Shown in pieces: positions 12,372 through 19,632 of a DNA stretch of 64,000 nt (position 1 is its first letter; the number at the start of each line of letters is the position of its first letter). Origin of the DNA: Variovorax sp. HW608 (GTDB lineage: Bacteria > Pseudomonadota > Gammaproteobacteria > Burkholderiales > Burkholderiaceae_C). The notes under the pieces were generated by a model. That model made no database searches. It worked only from the letters and a program-made list of their open reading frames with translations, and was not told where the DNA came from. The translations under genes and the position numbers were made by a program. The stretch covers positions 2,232,001 to 2,296,000 of the forward strand of contig NZ_LT607803.1 of NCBI RefSeq assembly GCF_900090195.1. Direction: 5' to 3'.

Positions 12372-13175
12372 TCAATGTGCGGTGATCCAGGCCGCAATAC
12401 GATCCACCACCTCGGTCTCCAAACCGTTGTAGCCGTGGTGGCTCCAAGCCTCGCAGGGGTCGCCCTTGCTGATGCCGCCGCTGACCGGGATGAGTTCCTT
12501 GCGCGGCGCGCTGGTGAACTTCTCCATCAGGCCCGAGGTCTCGCTGAAGGGGCACTGCTTGCAACCGTCCTGCTGGTGGTGCACCACCAGCACCGGTACG
12601 GTGACGCGATCCAGTGGCATGGCCGGCACCGGGCGGCCGCGCGGGTCGCTCAGGATGGTGGAGGTCAACACCAGGCCGTCCGGCCCTCCATCGGCACGCG
12701 GCAGTTGCGTGCTGATCCAGGCGGCCGACTGTGTGCCTCGGCTGGTGCCCACCAGCCACACCGGAACCCCGGTCTTGTCGCGCATCCATCCGATCACCGC
12801 CTTCAGATCGGCCACGTGCTCGGGCGTCTGGCGAAAGCCATTGAGGAACGGCGCCGACTGCCGGTCCGAGGGTGCATCGACGACCGCCACGGCGAGGCCT
12901 TGCTGCCTGAACAGGTCGCGTGTGCGCACAAGGAAGTTGCCATCGCCCCAGTTGACGCTTCCGTTAGGAAATATCTGCAGGCCACCGTGACCGCCGGCCA
13001 GCAGAATGACCGCGGCGCGCGGCTTGTCAGGGGCGAGGTAGAGGAAGCGCTGCGTCACGCCGGGTCGTGTCGGAATGTCGACCACCTGGGCTGCGGTCTG
13101 CGCCCTCGGCGAAAGGGACAGGACGAACAACAGCAGAAACAGAAACGACCGCCGGCGAGCCATGAAGGGTTTCAC
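12372..13175 (-). CDS. Secreted alpha/beta hydrolase
   Basis: 267 residues. The GTG start at 13175 is chosen because AAGGAG lies 6 bases upstream; an ATG at 13163 is the alternative. The signal peptide runs from RRRSFLFLLLFVLSL to AQTAAQ. The alpha/beta fold core has VILLAGGHGG, the nucleophile elbow VGTSRGT with Ser, and a closing SHHGYNGLE with the probable catalytic His. C-x-x-C (CKQCPF) may form a disulfide. It resembles small secreted dienelactone-hydrolase-like enzymes. It lies 21 bp after the cyclase gene on the same strand. Substrate unknown. Confidence 0.75.
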   Translation of the reverse strand: MKPFMARRRSFLFLLLFVLSLSPRAQTAAQVVDIPTRPGVTQRFLYLAPDKPRAAVILLAGGHGGLQIFPNGSVNWGDGNFLVRTRDLFRQQGLAVAVVDAPSDRQSAPFLNGFRQTPEHVADLKAVIGWMRDKTGVPVWLVGTSRGTQSAAWISTQLPRADGGPDGLVLTSTILSDPRGRPVPAMPLDRVTVPVLVVHHQQDGCKQCPFSETSGLMEKFTSAPRKELIPVSGGISKGDPCEAWSHHGYNGLETEVVDRIAAWITAH

Positions 13176-13196: not shown

Positions 13197-14879
13197 TCAT
13201 CGACTTCGAGCGTCTACTTCAAGCCGCGCCAGGGCGGGCGAATCGAGCACAAGGACATCCAGGGGGGCCTGTCTTCCGCGCACCGAGATGCGCTGCACGG
13301 GTGGCATCTCGGATTCCGGAATGCCTGCGTTACGGGCTGCGAAGTCCGAGATCACGAGCGTCGCACTGCTCAACTTGGTCTGGTCCTGAAGGCGGCTCGC
13401 CGTGTTCACCACCTCGCCCACGGCCGTGAACGAACGTACGCCGCGATGCCCCACGTCGGCCACGGCGGCGCTGCCAGCGTGTATTCCAATCCCGAACGCC
13501 AGCGGCTGCCCGAAGTCCGCCTCGAACACCGCACTCCAGGCGCGCATGCGTTCGTCGATGAGCTTTGCGGCGTGGACGGCGCCGCGGCAGGCGTTCTGAA
13601 GATTTCCTTCCAGGCCGAAGAGGGCCATGACGCTGTCGCCGATGTACTGATTGGCAACGCCGCCCGACTCATGGACTGCGTCGCCGACCAGCGCAAAGTA
13701 GTGGTCCAGGACGTAGACCAGGTCGAAGGGCCATTGCTTCTCGGACAACCCGGACCAACGCCGCAGATCGACGAACAGCACGGCCACTTCCCGCTCGCTG
13801 TCGAGCCTGTTCAGGCTGGCTGTTCGGGCGGTCATCACCGGCGTGACCTGCAGGTCACCCAGCGGTCGCAACTGACATGCCAGTCGGACGTTCTCTCCAG
13901 CGCGCACCCGGGCGAGCGTTCGCTGTTCATCCGGGCCTGGCGGAGGGGAGTTTGCAATGGGGCCCGAAACCCGAATGCGGCAAGTCGAGCACCGGGCCCG
14001 ACCGCCGCACACGGACAAGTGCGCGATGCCGTGCTTCCGACTGGCTTCCAGGACGCTCCAGCCCAAGGGAACCCTGACTGTCCGGTCGGGGTAGGTCAGC
14101 GTGATCGTTCGTCCTCCCAGGCGCTCCGATCTTGCCCTCCATGCGAGCGCGAGCAGGAAAGCCGACAGGCCGGCAGCGTAGCCGATGCGCCCAGTGCCGA
14201 CAGCGTCCTTGAGCAGCGCGGAAACGCTTGAAGGCGGCTGACTGTTCGCGATCGGTTGGGCTGCGGCTTCGCGCCCCATCGACAAGAAGCCGAGCGCCGC
14301 AATGAGGGGCAGGACGACGGCGGCCGTCAGCAGGAGAGGCTGTGCATGTCGCCAGGAAGAACGCTGGCGCAGGGCGAAGTGCAGTCCCATGCACCCATGG
14401 GTCCAGGCCACCACCATGATGAACATCTGCCACCAGCCGCCGGTACCCCAGAGATTTCGCAAGGTCTGCGCATAGGTCGCCTCGAATCCGGCCAGCGTGT
14501 AGGGCCCGCGCGTCGCTGCCAGGTGCGAGGCCAGCAGCAGCGGCAGTGCCAGGCCGAGGCCGATTCGAAGCATCTGGGGGACGGGCATGCGCAGCGTGCG
14601 GCGCTCCCAAAGGGCCGAGAACGCCAGCACGAGATGAATGAACGCGGCACCATACAGCAGCAATGTGCCTGGCCACGAATGCCAGAGCGCGGTCGCCCAG
14701 CGCAATGTCGTCTCGGCGGCCTCCAGCGACACCAGGCCCATGGCGTGGTTGAGCAGGTGCAGCGCCACATAGATCATGAGCACCCAGCCACTGGCCCAGC
14801 GCAGGTTGCGGCGGGAAAGTGGAGGCAGCGCGGGCTGTTTGAGCAACGAAGTCATCGGCGCATGAGCATAGCGCCGCAT
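13197..14879 (-). CDS. Membrane adenylate/guanylate cyclase with heme-anchor-like and [2Fe-2S] ferredoxin domains
   Basis: About 560 residues (ATG 14855 is an alternative start). Order: residues ~25-210, about six hydrophobic helices with many histidines (LHLLNH, FIHLV, ASHLAA, WTHGCMGLH), like the SdhC-type anchor of redox-regulated cyclases. Residues ~245-345 form a plant-type ferredoxin with C-x5-C-x2-C near 292-301 and a fourth Cys near 334. Residues ~360-560 form a class III cyclase with FVDLRRWSG and IGDSVMALFG metal aspartates. The usual substrate Lys and Asp are changed: NQYIGD and VGEVVN. It probably makes cAMP or cGMP in response to quinone or redox state (inference from the S. meliloti CyaC precedent). 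Confidence 0.85.
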   Translation of the reverse strand: MRRYAHAPMTSLLKQPALPPLSRRNLRWASGWVLMIYVALHLLNHAMGLVSLEAAETTLRWATALWHSWPGTLLLYGAAFIHLVLAFSALWERRTLRMPVPQMLRIGLGLALPLLLASHLAATRGPYTLAGFEATYAQTLRNLWGTGGWWQMFIMVVAWTHGCMGLHFALRQRSSWRHAQPLLLTAAVVLPLIAALGFLSMGREAAAQPIANSQPPSSVSALLKDAVGTGRIGYAAGLSAFLLALAWRARSERLGGRTITLTYPDRTVRVPLGWSVLEASRKHGIAHLSVCGGRARCSTCRIRVSGPIANSPPPGPDEQRTLARVRAGENVRLACQLRPLGDLQVTPVMTARTASLNRLDSEREVAVLFVDLRRWSGLSEKQWPFDLVYVLDHYFALVGDAVHESGGVANQYIGDSVMALFGLEGNLQNACRGAVHAAKLIDERMRAWSAVFEADFGQPLAFGIGIHAGSAAVADVGHRGVRSFTAVGEVVNTASRLQDQTKLSSATLVISDFAARNAGIPESEMPPVQRISVRGRQAPLDVLVLDSPALARLEVDARSR

Positions 14880-14939: not shown

Positions 14940-15395
14940 CTAGTTGAGGCCGCGCTGGCGACCTGCCAGTGCGTAGCGGCCGGCGCCCAGCAACATCACG
15001 GCGAACGCGCCGAACAGGTACAGGCCCTGCAGTTCGAGCGCCCAACCGCCCTGGTTCGTCAGCTCGAAGAGGTGGCCGGTATGCACCAGCAGGACGGCCA
15101 CGACCATGTTGACGACCACGACGGCGGCCGCGGCGCGCGTCCACAGTCCTGCAATCATCAAGGCAGGCGCGAGGATCTCGCCCACGTAGACGAGATAGCC
15201 CAGCGCACCGGGCAGGTCGTGGGCGGCCAGCATCTTGAGGACGAAGCCGGGACCGGAGCCGAGCTTGAACAGTCCATGGAGAAGCACCAGCACGCCGACA
15301 GTCACGCGCAGGACCAACTTGCCGGCGTCATCGCCCCAGGATGGAGCCAGCCCCTGCCTGGAGTCGGTTGCGGGGGCAGCCATTACCGCGTTCAT
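14940..15395 (-). CDS. DoxX family membrane protein
   Basis: 151 residues. After a short N-terminal tail there are four hydrophobic helices, beginning KLVLRVTVGVLVLLHGLFKL, then LVYVGEILAPALMIAG, AAAVVVVNMVVAVLL and LYLFGAFAVMLLGAG. This is the DoxX/YqjF pattern, a small inner-membrane family linked with redox metabolism and thiol stress. The start codon overlaps the stop of a tiny upstream frame by ATGA. It follows the cyclase gene's promoter region on the same strand but is downstream of nothing obvious that sets its function. Confidence 0.85.
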   Translation of the reverse strand: MNAVMAAPATDSRQGLAPSWGDDAGKLVLRVTVGVLVLLHGLFKLGSGPGFVLKMLAAHDLPGALGYLVYVGEILAPALMIAGLWTRAAAAVVVVNMVVAVLLVHTGHLFELTNQGGWALELQGLYLFGAFAVMLLGAGRYALAGRQRGLN

Positions 15396-17722: not shown

Positions 17723-18123
17723 GTTGTCTCCTGTGCGCCGGTCAAAACCGGCAAAGTGTTGTGAATGAAAGTTTCATACGTTGAAGGCTTAGCCAGCTAC
17801 GGCGGCCCCGAGTCATGCGTGCACATCCGCGAGGGTGTGGGCGAAGCGTTGATAGGGGGACGAGCGGGCCGGGTATCGAGCCGCGTAATACATGCCCCGT
17901 GGCGACAGCTGCGGGTGGTCCGGGGTGCCGAGGCAGTAGGAGAATGCCGAAGGTCACACCGTCGCTGCCGCATTGGCGAGGCAGAGGCGGACCCCGCGCG
18001 GTCAAAGACCCCGAGCACGCACGCAAGCACTTTGTTCGGGAACCGGGAGATCCCGCGTCCTTCTGCGCAGCGCTGGGAAGCGCTGGCTGCAGAGCGCATC
18101 GTGAAGCCCAAGGGCGTACGACG

Positions 18124-19632
18124 ATGAGCCACAGGCGCGGGAAGTCGGACTGCTGCGTAGTACCGAAGAAGCTGCCGAACAAGGCTGCGGGGGAAGCTCC
18201 TGCGGCGGCGGAGGTGGTGGAGGGAAGGCGGCAGGCCAAGGGAAATGCCATCGCGGCGCGCATGTCCCGCAGATCGGTGCGGGTCTATGACATGGGAACC
18301 GCGCTCGATGGCATACGACAGACGGCAAAGGGCCGTCGTGATGCGAAGTTCACGGGACTGCTGCATCACATCTACGCGGTCGAACGCCTGCGGGCGGCTT
18401 ACCTCGCGCTCAAGCGCGACGCGGCCGCCGGGGTGGACGGCCAGACCTGGCAGACGTACGGACAGGACCTGGAGGGCAATCTCCTGGAGTTGTCCGAGCG
18501 GCTGGCCCGAGGGGGCTACCGGCCCCAGCCTGTGAAGAGGGCGTACATCGACAAGGCCGACGGCAGCAAGCGCCCGCTGGGCGTGCCGGCGCTGGAGGAC
18601 AAGCTCGTCCAGCGTGCCACGGTCGAAGTGTTGAACGCCATCTACGAGCAGGACTTCCTCGGGTTCAGCTACGGCTTCAGGCCCGGGCGCAGCGCGCACA
18701 ACGCGCTGGATGCCGTGGCGGTGGGTGTGGGCGCAAGGAAGGTGAACTGGATACTCGATGCGGACATCGCCAAGTTCTTCGACACGATCGAAAGGGACTG
18801 GCTGGTGAAGTTCATCGAACATCGCGTGGCTGACACGCGCGTGGTGCGGCTGATCAAGAAATGGCTGCACGCGGGCGTGCTGGAGGACGGCAGGCTCACG
18901 CAAGGTGAGTTGGGGACGGTTCAGGGCGGGAGCATCAGTCCGCTGCTGGCCAACATCTACCTGCACTATGCGTTGGACCTGTGGGTGAAGCAGTGGAGGG
19001 GGCGCCATGCCCGGGGTGACGTGATCGTCGTGCGCTACGCCGACGATTGGGTTGCGGGGTTCCAGTTCCGTGATGACGCCGAGCGCTTCCAGCGCGCGGT
19101 GGCCGAGCGGCTGGGCCAGTTCGGGTTGAAGCTGCATCCCGAGAAGACGCGGCTGATCGAGTTCGGGCGCTTCGCCCACGAGAACCGACGCCGCAAGGGA
19201 CAAGGCAAGCCGCAGACCTTCGACTTCCTGGGGTTCACGCATTGCTGCGGGACGACCCGAAAGGGCAAGTTCATGGTCCTGCGACTCACCAGTGCCAAAC
19301 GCCTGCGAGCCAAGCTGCAGGTGATCAAGCTCGAACTCAGAAGGCGCATGCACCAACCCATCCCGGAGCAGGGCCAGTACCTGCGGGCGGTGGTGACTGG
19401 GCATGCGCGCTACTTCGGCGTGCCGTGCAACGGCGCGCGGCTGAGGACATTCCGCCATCAGGTCGTCGGGCTGTGGCATCGCACGCTGTGCCGCCGCAGC
19501 CAGAGCCACGACCTGCCTTGGCGACGCATGTATCGCTTGATGGCGCGCTGGCTGCCTGTCCCGAACATCTGCCACCCCTACCCGAACCAGCGTCTGATCG
19601 TCATGACCCAAGGCAGGAGCCGTATGCGGTAG
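18124..19632 (+). CDS. ltrA: Group II intron reverse transcriptase/maturase
   Basis: 502 residues from ATG 18124; the frame is open upstream into intron domain structure and ATG 18262 is also possible. Reverse transcriptase blocks are in order: GVDGQTWQTY, RPLGVPALEDKLVQRA, GFSYGFRPGRSAH, the first catalytic Asp in ILDADIAKFFD, GTVQGGSISPLLANIYLH, and the RYADDWV active site. After KPQTFDFLGF the maturase (X) domain follows. The protein ends without an HNH endonuclease, so it belongs to the endonuclease-lacking group that usually inserts at replication forks or hairpins (family knowledge). It would splice its own intron RNA and drive retrohoming. Confidence 0.95.
   Translation: MSHRRGKSDCCVVPKKLPNKAAGEAPAAAEVVEGRRQAKGNAIAARMSRRSVRVYDMGTALDGIRQTAKGRRDAKFTGLLHHIYAVERLRAAYLALKRDAAAGVDGQTWQTYGQDLEGNLLELSERLARGGYRPQPVKRAYIDKADGSKRPLGVPALEDKLVQRATVEVLNAIYEQDFLGFSYGFRPGRSAHNALDAVAVGVGARKVNWILDADIAKFFDTIERDWLVKFIEHRVADTRVVRLIKKWLHAGVLEDGRLTQGELGTVQGGSISPLLANIYLHYALDLWVKQWRGRHARGDVIVVRYADDWVAGFQFRDDAERFQRAVAERLGQFGLKLHPEKTRLIEFGRFAHENRRRKGQGKPQTFDFLGFTHCCGTTRKGKFMVLRLTSAKRLRAKLQVIKLELRRRMHQPIPEQGQYLRAVVTGHARYFGVPCNGARLRTFRHQVVGLWHRTLCRRSQSHDLPWRRMYRLMARWLPVPNICHPYPNQRLIVMTQGRSRMR

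Follow-up and report, generated by a model that had tools for sequence, protein, structure and literature searches.

Beltz et al. (2016) identified 30 class IIIb cyclases that form a cluster set apart from the others and in which a ferredoxin domain is placed between a six-transmembrane (6TM) anchor and the catalytic domain (PMC4821796). In the accessible parts of that paper, the anchor is likened to the cytochrome b subunits of fumarate reductase and succinate dehydrogenase, two hemes are predicted for this ferredoxin cluster, and four histidines in helices are stated for the SdhC/fumarate reductase anchors. For CyaC of S. meliloti, a paper from 2023 (PMC10463352) reports, citing Wissig et al. 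2019, two b hemes in a six-TM anchor, together with quinone-dependent activity and activation upon oxidation by quinones, and the legend of its Fig. 6 provides the enzyme with a [2Fe-2S] cluster. The same source places Lys410 and Thr484 in the ATP site, assigns the transition-state role to the pair Asn491 and Arg495, describes a TetR regulator gene, cycR, ahead of cyaC, and reports an interaction of CyaC with the regulator Clr. S. meliloti Clr (PDB entry 7pza) responds to both cAMP and cGMP, as stated in the available text of its description (PMC10127613).

The window, by which we mean the whole stretch of 64,000 nucleotides analyzed here, encodes a protein of this layout, with the following parts:

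13197..14879, minus strand: cyclase gene, an intact open reading frame of 560 amino acids from the Met at 14879
14145..14789, minus strand: six-helix membrane anchor, from hydropathy and a weak match to TIGR02046 below cut-off
13863..14087, minus strand: Fer2 [2Fe-2S] domain (PF00111, residues 265-339, E 4.2e-7, over the curated cut-off)
13269..13796, minus strand: class III nucleotide cyclase catalytic domain (PF00211; PDB matches 2w01 and 1wc1)

The order of parts proposed in the first-pass annotation, i.e., membrane anchor, [2Fe-2S] domain and class III cyclase, was borne out by hydropathy and Pfam in an intact reading frame. The protein has six transmembrane helices, four intramembrane histidines, a Fer2 domain between anchor and catalytic domain, and a class III domain with Asp371, Asp415, Asn492, and Arg496. 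Considering the cluster of Beltz et al. and the CyaC data, this three-part fusion is therefore that of the CyaC family, a family of redox cyclases already known with all three parts, of which the window protein is a further member. The ferredoxin domain had been regarded as an addition to the S. meliloti enzyme. This view was mistaken, as was the novelty it implied: CyaC itself is drawn with a [2Fe-2S] cluster (Fig. 6 legend, PMC10463352), and the 30 cyclases of this layout were described already in 2016 (PMC4821796). The suggestion of a redox- or quinone-sensing cyclase is retained as the best reading because of the membership in the CyaC family, and we consider it fairly likely that the window protein is a quinone-linked redox sensor of this family, most probably making cAMP.

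Residue numbers are counted from the Met at 14879 (560-residue version). In the relative L012, an in-frame stop is located just ahead of the second Met (ATG at 14855), and for this reason the true start is probably this ATG, giving 552 residues. The cyclase gene is under purifying selection, with pairwise dN/dS values between the window and three relatives (L009, L010, and L012) of 0.14-0.19 over the gene. In the separate parts, the values were 0.10-0.25 for anchor and cyclase and lowest, at 0.04-0.13, for Fer2; the cyclase domain alone gave 0.10-0.13.

Conservation was assessed in an alignment of 84 distinct full-length sequences, i.e., the window protein and 83 others, from which three identical rows had been removed and which leaves out partial, anchorless, and anchor-only matches. 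The aligned loci came from among the matches listed and from 26 chosen stretches (the unaligned matches include the second G019 copy, G400, G727, G728, and G738), and the sample is weighted to close relatives, with 36 rows (window included) more than 50% identical to the window protein and 48 under. In the sample of the window's genus, the cyclase was present in 36 of 61 genomes, the own genome and fragments included, and the window protein was 76-81% identical to its counterparts in four genome records, of which two carry Variovorax in the title; a fifth record matched in the cyclase domain only. Matches at E up to 1e-30 were obtained in eight of 300 genomes of the order, own genome included (G499 without the cyclase part). 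In an even draw across the phylum, 49 of 397 genomes matched the anchor with an E-value of 1e-4 or lower, the match in G228 being weak and 62 residues long. Among 72,556 plasmid records, 554 matched, and in 166 of these a stretch spans 80% or more of the query; the genera most often represented among the 554 were Rhizobium (189) and Sinorhizobium (162).

The hydropathy scan (19-residue window, threshold 1.2) gave eight runs, which were merged into six spans at approximately residues 31-54, 68-92, 98-124, 152-170, 176-207, and 226-245, all of which precede the Fer2 and cyclase domains. Spans 1 to 4 each carry a predicted heme ligand:

14757..14759, minus strand: His41, span 1, invariant in 84 of 84
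14634..14636, minus strand: His82, span 2, invariant in 84 of 84
14523..14525, minus strand: His119, span 3, invariant in 84 of 84
14397..14399, minus strand: His161, span 4, invariant in 84 of 84

A further histidine, His45, is kept in 80 of the 84 sequences. The window anchor matched TIGR02046 (SdhC b558) over residues 23-89 with E-values of 0.15 and 0.033, far below cut-off. Of 35 family members, 11 matched this profile with E-values of 0.1 or less, the best being 0.00076 and still below cut-off, and two matched Pfam Sdh_cyt (best E 0.0056), while one member matched the unrelated DUF998 better (6.2e-5) than Sdh_cyt. SdhC b558 genes, searched for as a set for profile comparison, were found in none of 150 Pseudomonadota genomes. 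A profile of the 35 anchors gave no relevant match in the PDB at E up to 1; the sole chain obtained, sc-CC-6-95 (E 0.11), aligned through repeated low-scoring stretches and was rejected. AlphaFold2, run on five sequences (the window and the loci of four relatives), gave a mean pLDDT of 40.8, too poor for ligand geometry. The heme prediction draws mainly on the published work on CyaC and its cluster, together with the histidines.

The cluster motif of the Fer2 domain, which lies between anchor and cyclase domain, is Cys291-x5-Cys297-x2-Cys300-x34-Cys335, and the four cysteines are invariant in all 84 sequences.

The catalytic domain was matched by Guanylate_cyc (PF00211) over residues 362-537 (E 2e-10, over the curated cut-off) and, for the catalytic domain only, by 2w01 (E 6.5e-14) and 1wc1 (E 7.1e-13). 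The metal ligands Asp371 and Asp415 are invariant (84 of 84), Asn492 is kept in 80 and Arg496 in 82, and all four residues occur together in 80 sequences. Three further positions bear on the choice of substrate:

13647..13649, minus strand: Gln411, in the place of the base-selecting Lys (Lys410 of CyaC); Gln in 54, Lys in 26, other in 4 of 84
13425..13427, minus strand: Thr485, second base-selecting residue (CyaC Thr484); Thr in 77, Ser in 4 of 84
13413..13415, minus strand: Glu489, taken in the first-pass annotation for an altered base-selecting Asp; Asp in 44, Glu in 38, other in 2 of 84

Based on the PDB alignment, the 84-row alignment, and the CyaC numbering, Gln411 does occupy the Lys position, as had been proposed; 1wc1 has Lys and 2w01 has Glu at this place. 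By published residue numbers, the spacing of Gln411, Thr485, Asn492, and Arg496 equals that of Lys410, Thr484, Asn491, and Arg495 in CyaC. The same numbering puts the second base-selecting residue at Thr485, which is kept, so that the claimed exchange of Asp for Glu was mistaken: Glu489 is located four residues further on, in a different column of the 84-row alignment, and is not that residue. Of the canonical class IIIb adenylate pair, the window protein thus has the Thr and carries Gln in place of the Lys, and because of this replacement it is assigned to the architecture family rather than listed as a proven adenylate cyclase.

Directly upstream of the cyclase gene and on the same strand is a gene for a membrane protein:

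14940..15395, minus strand: DoxX-family membrane protein gene (PF07681, E 2.7e-15)

Of 36 close loci, 27, the window among them, have a DoxX gene on the upstream side of the cyclase, and L039 and L042 have a more distant DoxX copy downstream of the cyclase. The open reading frame downstream in the window (12372-13175) had no Pfam match and appears hydrolase-like by eye only. Elsewhere in the window, an open reading frame on the plus strand (17815-19632) resembles, by eye, a group II intron reverse transcriptase.

In 34 of the 36 distinct close loci (at least 53% identity, window included), a divergent Crp-type gene directly adjoins the cyclase, the exceptions being the window and L014, which is on the same contig as L009. 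L015 is the same locus as L011, where the regulator is known from its first 120 residues. Outside the 36, cyclase and Crp-type gene are side by side, by position, in G007, G011, and G014; in G029, cyclase and Crp match are on separate contigs, and G010 gave no Crp match. None of the 48 rows below 50% identity showed a gene of this Crp type within the available upstream flanks of 0.2 to 5.6 kb (mostly 1-1.5 kb), and the link is therefore seen only in close relatives. The linked regulators have the domains cNMP_binding and HTH_Crp_2, and their best PDB match is 7pza, i.e., S. meliloti Clr. In the alignment to this match, the Clr pocket residues Gly85, Glu86, Arg95, and Ser96 correspond to Gly, Asp, Arg, and Ser in the regulator of L010.

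The nearest Crp-type relative in the own genome (L126:5884-6588, C1 near 5,534,400) is located 3.3 Mb from the cyclase gene. This copy shares 59% identity with the regulator linked to the cyclase in L010, whereas the linked regulators of L011 (over the first 120 residues) and L012 share 88-89% with that of L010. Based on these identities, the own-genome copy more likely represents a separate paralogue, and it is unlikely that the window's Crp gene has merely moved. Across the genus, a Crp match (E up to 1e-25) was obtained in 35 of 36 genomes with the cyclase versus 15 of 25 without (Fisher p 0.0003, kinship uncontrolled); the cyclase count includes the fragments of G007, G010, G011, G014, and G029, and a 34% match in G023 was left out. 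A Crp gene that serves solely this cyclase is ruled out, since such a gene is carried by 15 of the 25 cyclase-less genomes.

As a working mechanism for the quinone-linked sensor, two b hemes in the anchor would exchange electrons with the quinone pool. By analogy with the arrangement in Wolinella fumarate reductase, the hemes may be held by the pairs His41/His119 and His82/His161. Together with the cytosolic [2Fe-2S] domain and the linker, the hemes would then relay the redox state to a dimeric cyclase domain, the dimer would form a cyclic nucleotide, most probably cAMP, and this would be read by Crp-type regulators. For the window protein, we infer the hemes, the response to quinones, the direction of regulation, and the cAMP product from S. 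meliloti CyaC. Points that weigh against this reading are the Gln at the Lys position, the weak resemblance of the anchor to SdhC models, and the lack of the Crp-type gene at the window's own locus, together with its presence in genomes without the cyclase.

The identity of the product depends on how the exchange at the Lys position is read. The residue pairs at the site are Asn-Gln in 51, Ala-Gln in three, and Asp-Lys in 26 of the 84 sequences, and among the 48 rows less than 50% identical to the window, 18 have Gln and 26 have Lys. In a tree from which these columns were withheld, the Lys and Gln states require four changes, and the branch holding the window protein has Gln in 49 of 50 rows (support 92, not starred); the tree comes from a quick search, has several long branches and is unrooted, so that gain and loss of Gln read alike on it. 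Gln is thus a trait of a large family branch and not peculiar to the window protein. The first-pass annotation had concluded that the nucleotide preference is open; this follows from Gln411, which is a trait of the branch. Titles and the beginnings of abstracts were searched, with most subscription journals out of reach, and none of the papers listed dealt with the Gln variant or, within this group of bacteria, with a Crp-type gene linked to the cyclase.

Because the Lys is replaced by Gln, the same sensor might have relaxed or guanylate specificity throughout the Asn-Gln branch, the product being cGMP, or cGMP together with cAMP. The preponderance of Gln over Lys pairs, the near uniformity of the branch, and the four changes on the tree speak for this reading, as does Clr, the nearest PDB relative of the neighboring regulator, in answering to both nucleotides (PMC10127613). 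The partner position, however, is Thr in 77 of 84 sequences, Thr485 included, and 2w01 has Glu at the Lys position. Known guanylate cyclases usually have this Glu, which counts against the Gln of the window as a mark of guanylate specificity. Rv0386 of M. tuberculosis also has Gln at the Lys position, in favor of a changed preference, but is mainly an adenylyl cyclase. On balance, we regard a cGMP or mixed product as unlikely.

A more far-reaching version is slightly more doubtful still. Here, a large proteobacterial branch of the family, the window protein included, would have swapped Asp-Lys for Asn-Gln, so that its signal would not be plain cAMP but cGMP or both; the back-to-back, Clr-like Crp regulator would read this signal in the closest relatives, and the window lineage would have lost this neighbor and rewired its output.

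The quinone-linked reading also has to be weighed against sensing of a diatomic gas (O2 or NO) by the anchor hemes in place of the quinone pool; for heme sensors as a class, gas binding is possible. Four invariant histidines in four helices would suit two bis-His hemes with no site free, nothing in the present results points to gas sensing, and S. meliloti CyaC responds to quinones according to the available text of its description (PMC10463352); gas sensing is thus improbable. A degenerate catalytic domain, in a protein that serves electron transfer only, is highly improbable, for although the Lys is lost in the window protein and L073, L078, L086, and L087 have lost further catalytic residues, the window protein has both metal Asp, Asn492, and Arg496, and the dN/dS of its cyclase domain is low (see above).

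Related proteins of other layouts were also observed. The own genome has a second full-length CyaC-like cyclase (L043:3731-5434, 43% identical), and upstream of it, with another open reading frame between, a four-His anchor alone, with neither ferredoxin nor cyclase (L043:6133-6969, minus strand, C1 near 1,859,300), which is 42% identical to the window's anchor. Anchor and [2Fe-2S] domain without a cyclase were found in L105:2971-3960 and L106:3796-4935, each overlapping an open reading frame for an MscS-type mechanosensitive channel; the L105 gene (G183) is the sole open frame under 550 amino acids among matches in 45 of 398 genomes, so this layout is rare. L097:442-1884 (minus strand, P0003) combines ferredoxin, cyclase, and Rieske [2Fe-2S] in one frame, with no anchor matched. 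Seven further loci (L092-L096, L098, and L099) encode ferredoxin-cyclase proteins without this membrane anchor, and the base position in these anchorless proteins is Lys in L092, L093, L095, and L096, Asn in L094, and Asp in L098 and L099. On rhizobial plasmids (L102, L103, and L104), a CyaC-like cyclase is flanked on one side by a divergent pair, glycosyltransferase and polysaccharide deacetylase, and followed downstream by an FkbM methyltransferase, with a one-base overlap between cyclase and methyltransferase genes in L102 and L104; this neighborhood is recurrent and unlike that of the window.

With the apparent novelty of the fusion corrected, the branch-wide Gln and the Crp-type neighbor are the parts worth following. 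The natural Lys/Gln split within one redox-cyclase family makes the role of the base-reading residue comparable while sensor and fold are constant, and the back-to-back Crp-type gene of the close relatives suggests a likely reader of the signal outside rhizobia.

Compared with known systems, the SdhC b558 anchors (TIGR02046) have, like the window protein, four helix histidines, and their profile matches it weakly over residues 23-89, far below cut-off. They differ in having no sixth helix, the anchor of Wolinella fumarate reductase having five, and no fused domains. Cluster 1 of Beltz et al., e.g., Q132R4 of Rhodopseudomonas palustris, has the same layout, four intramembrane histidines, and an alpha- and betaproteobacterial range, and we found no architectural difference from the window protein in what the available text gives, Q132R4 being compared by its description only (PMC4821796). 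S. meliloti CyaC (SMc01818) likewise has the six-helix, diheme-type anchor, the [2Fe-2S] domain, and the class III cyclase, with Thr, Asn, and Arg spaced as in the window protein when compared by published residue numbers and not by sequence; in the accessible account of this system, however, CyaC has Lys410 and a TetR gene (cycR) ahead, where the window has Gln411 and DoxX (PMC10463352).
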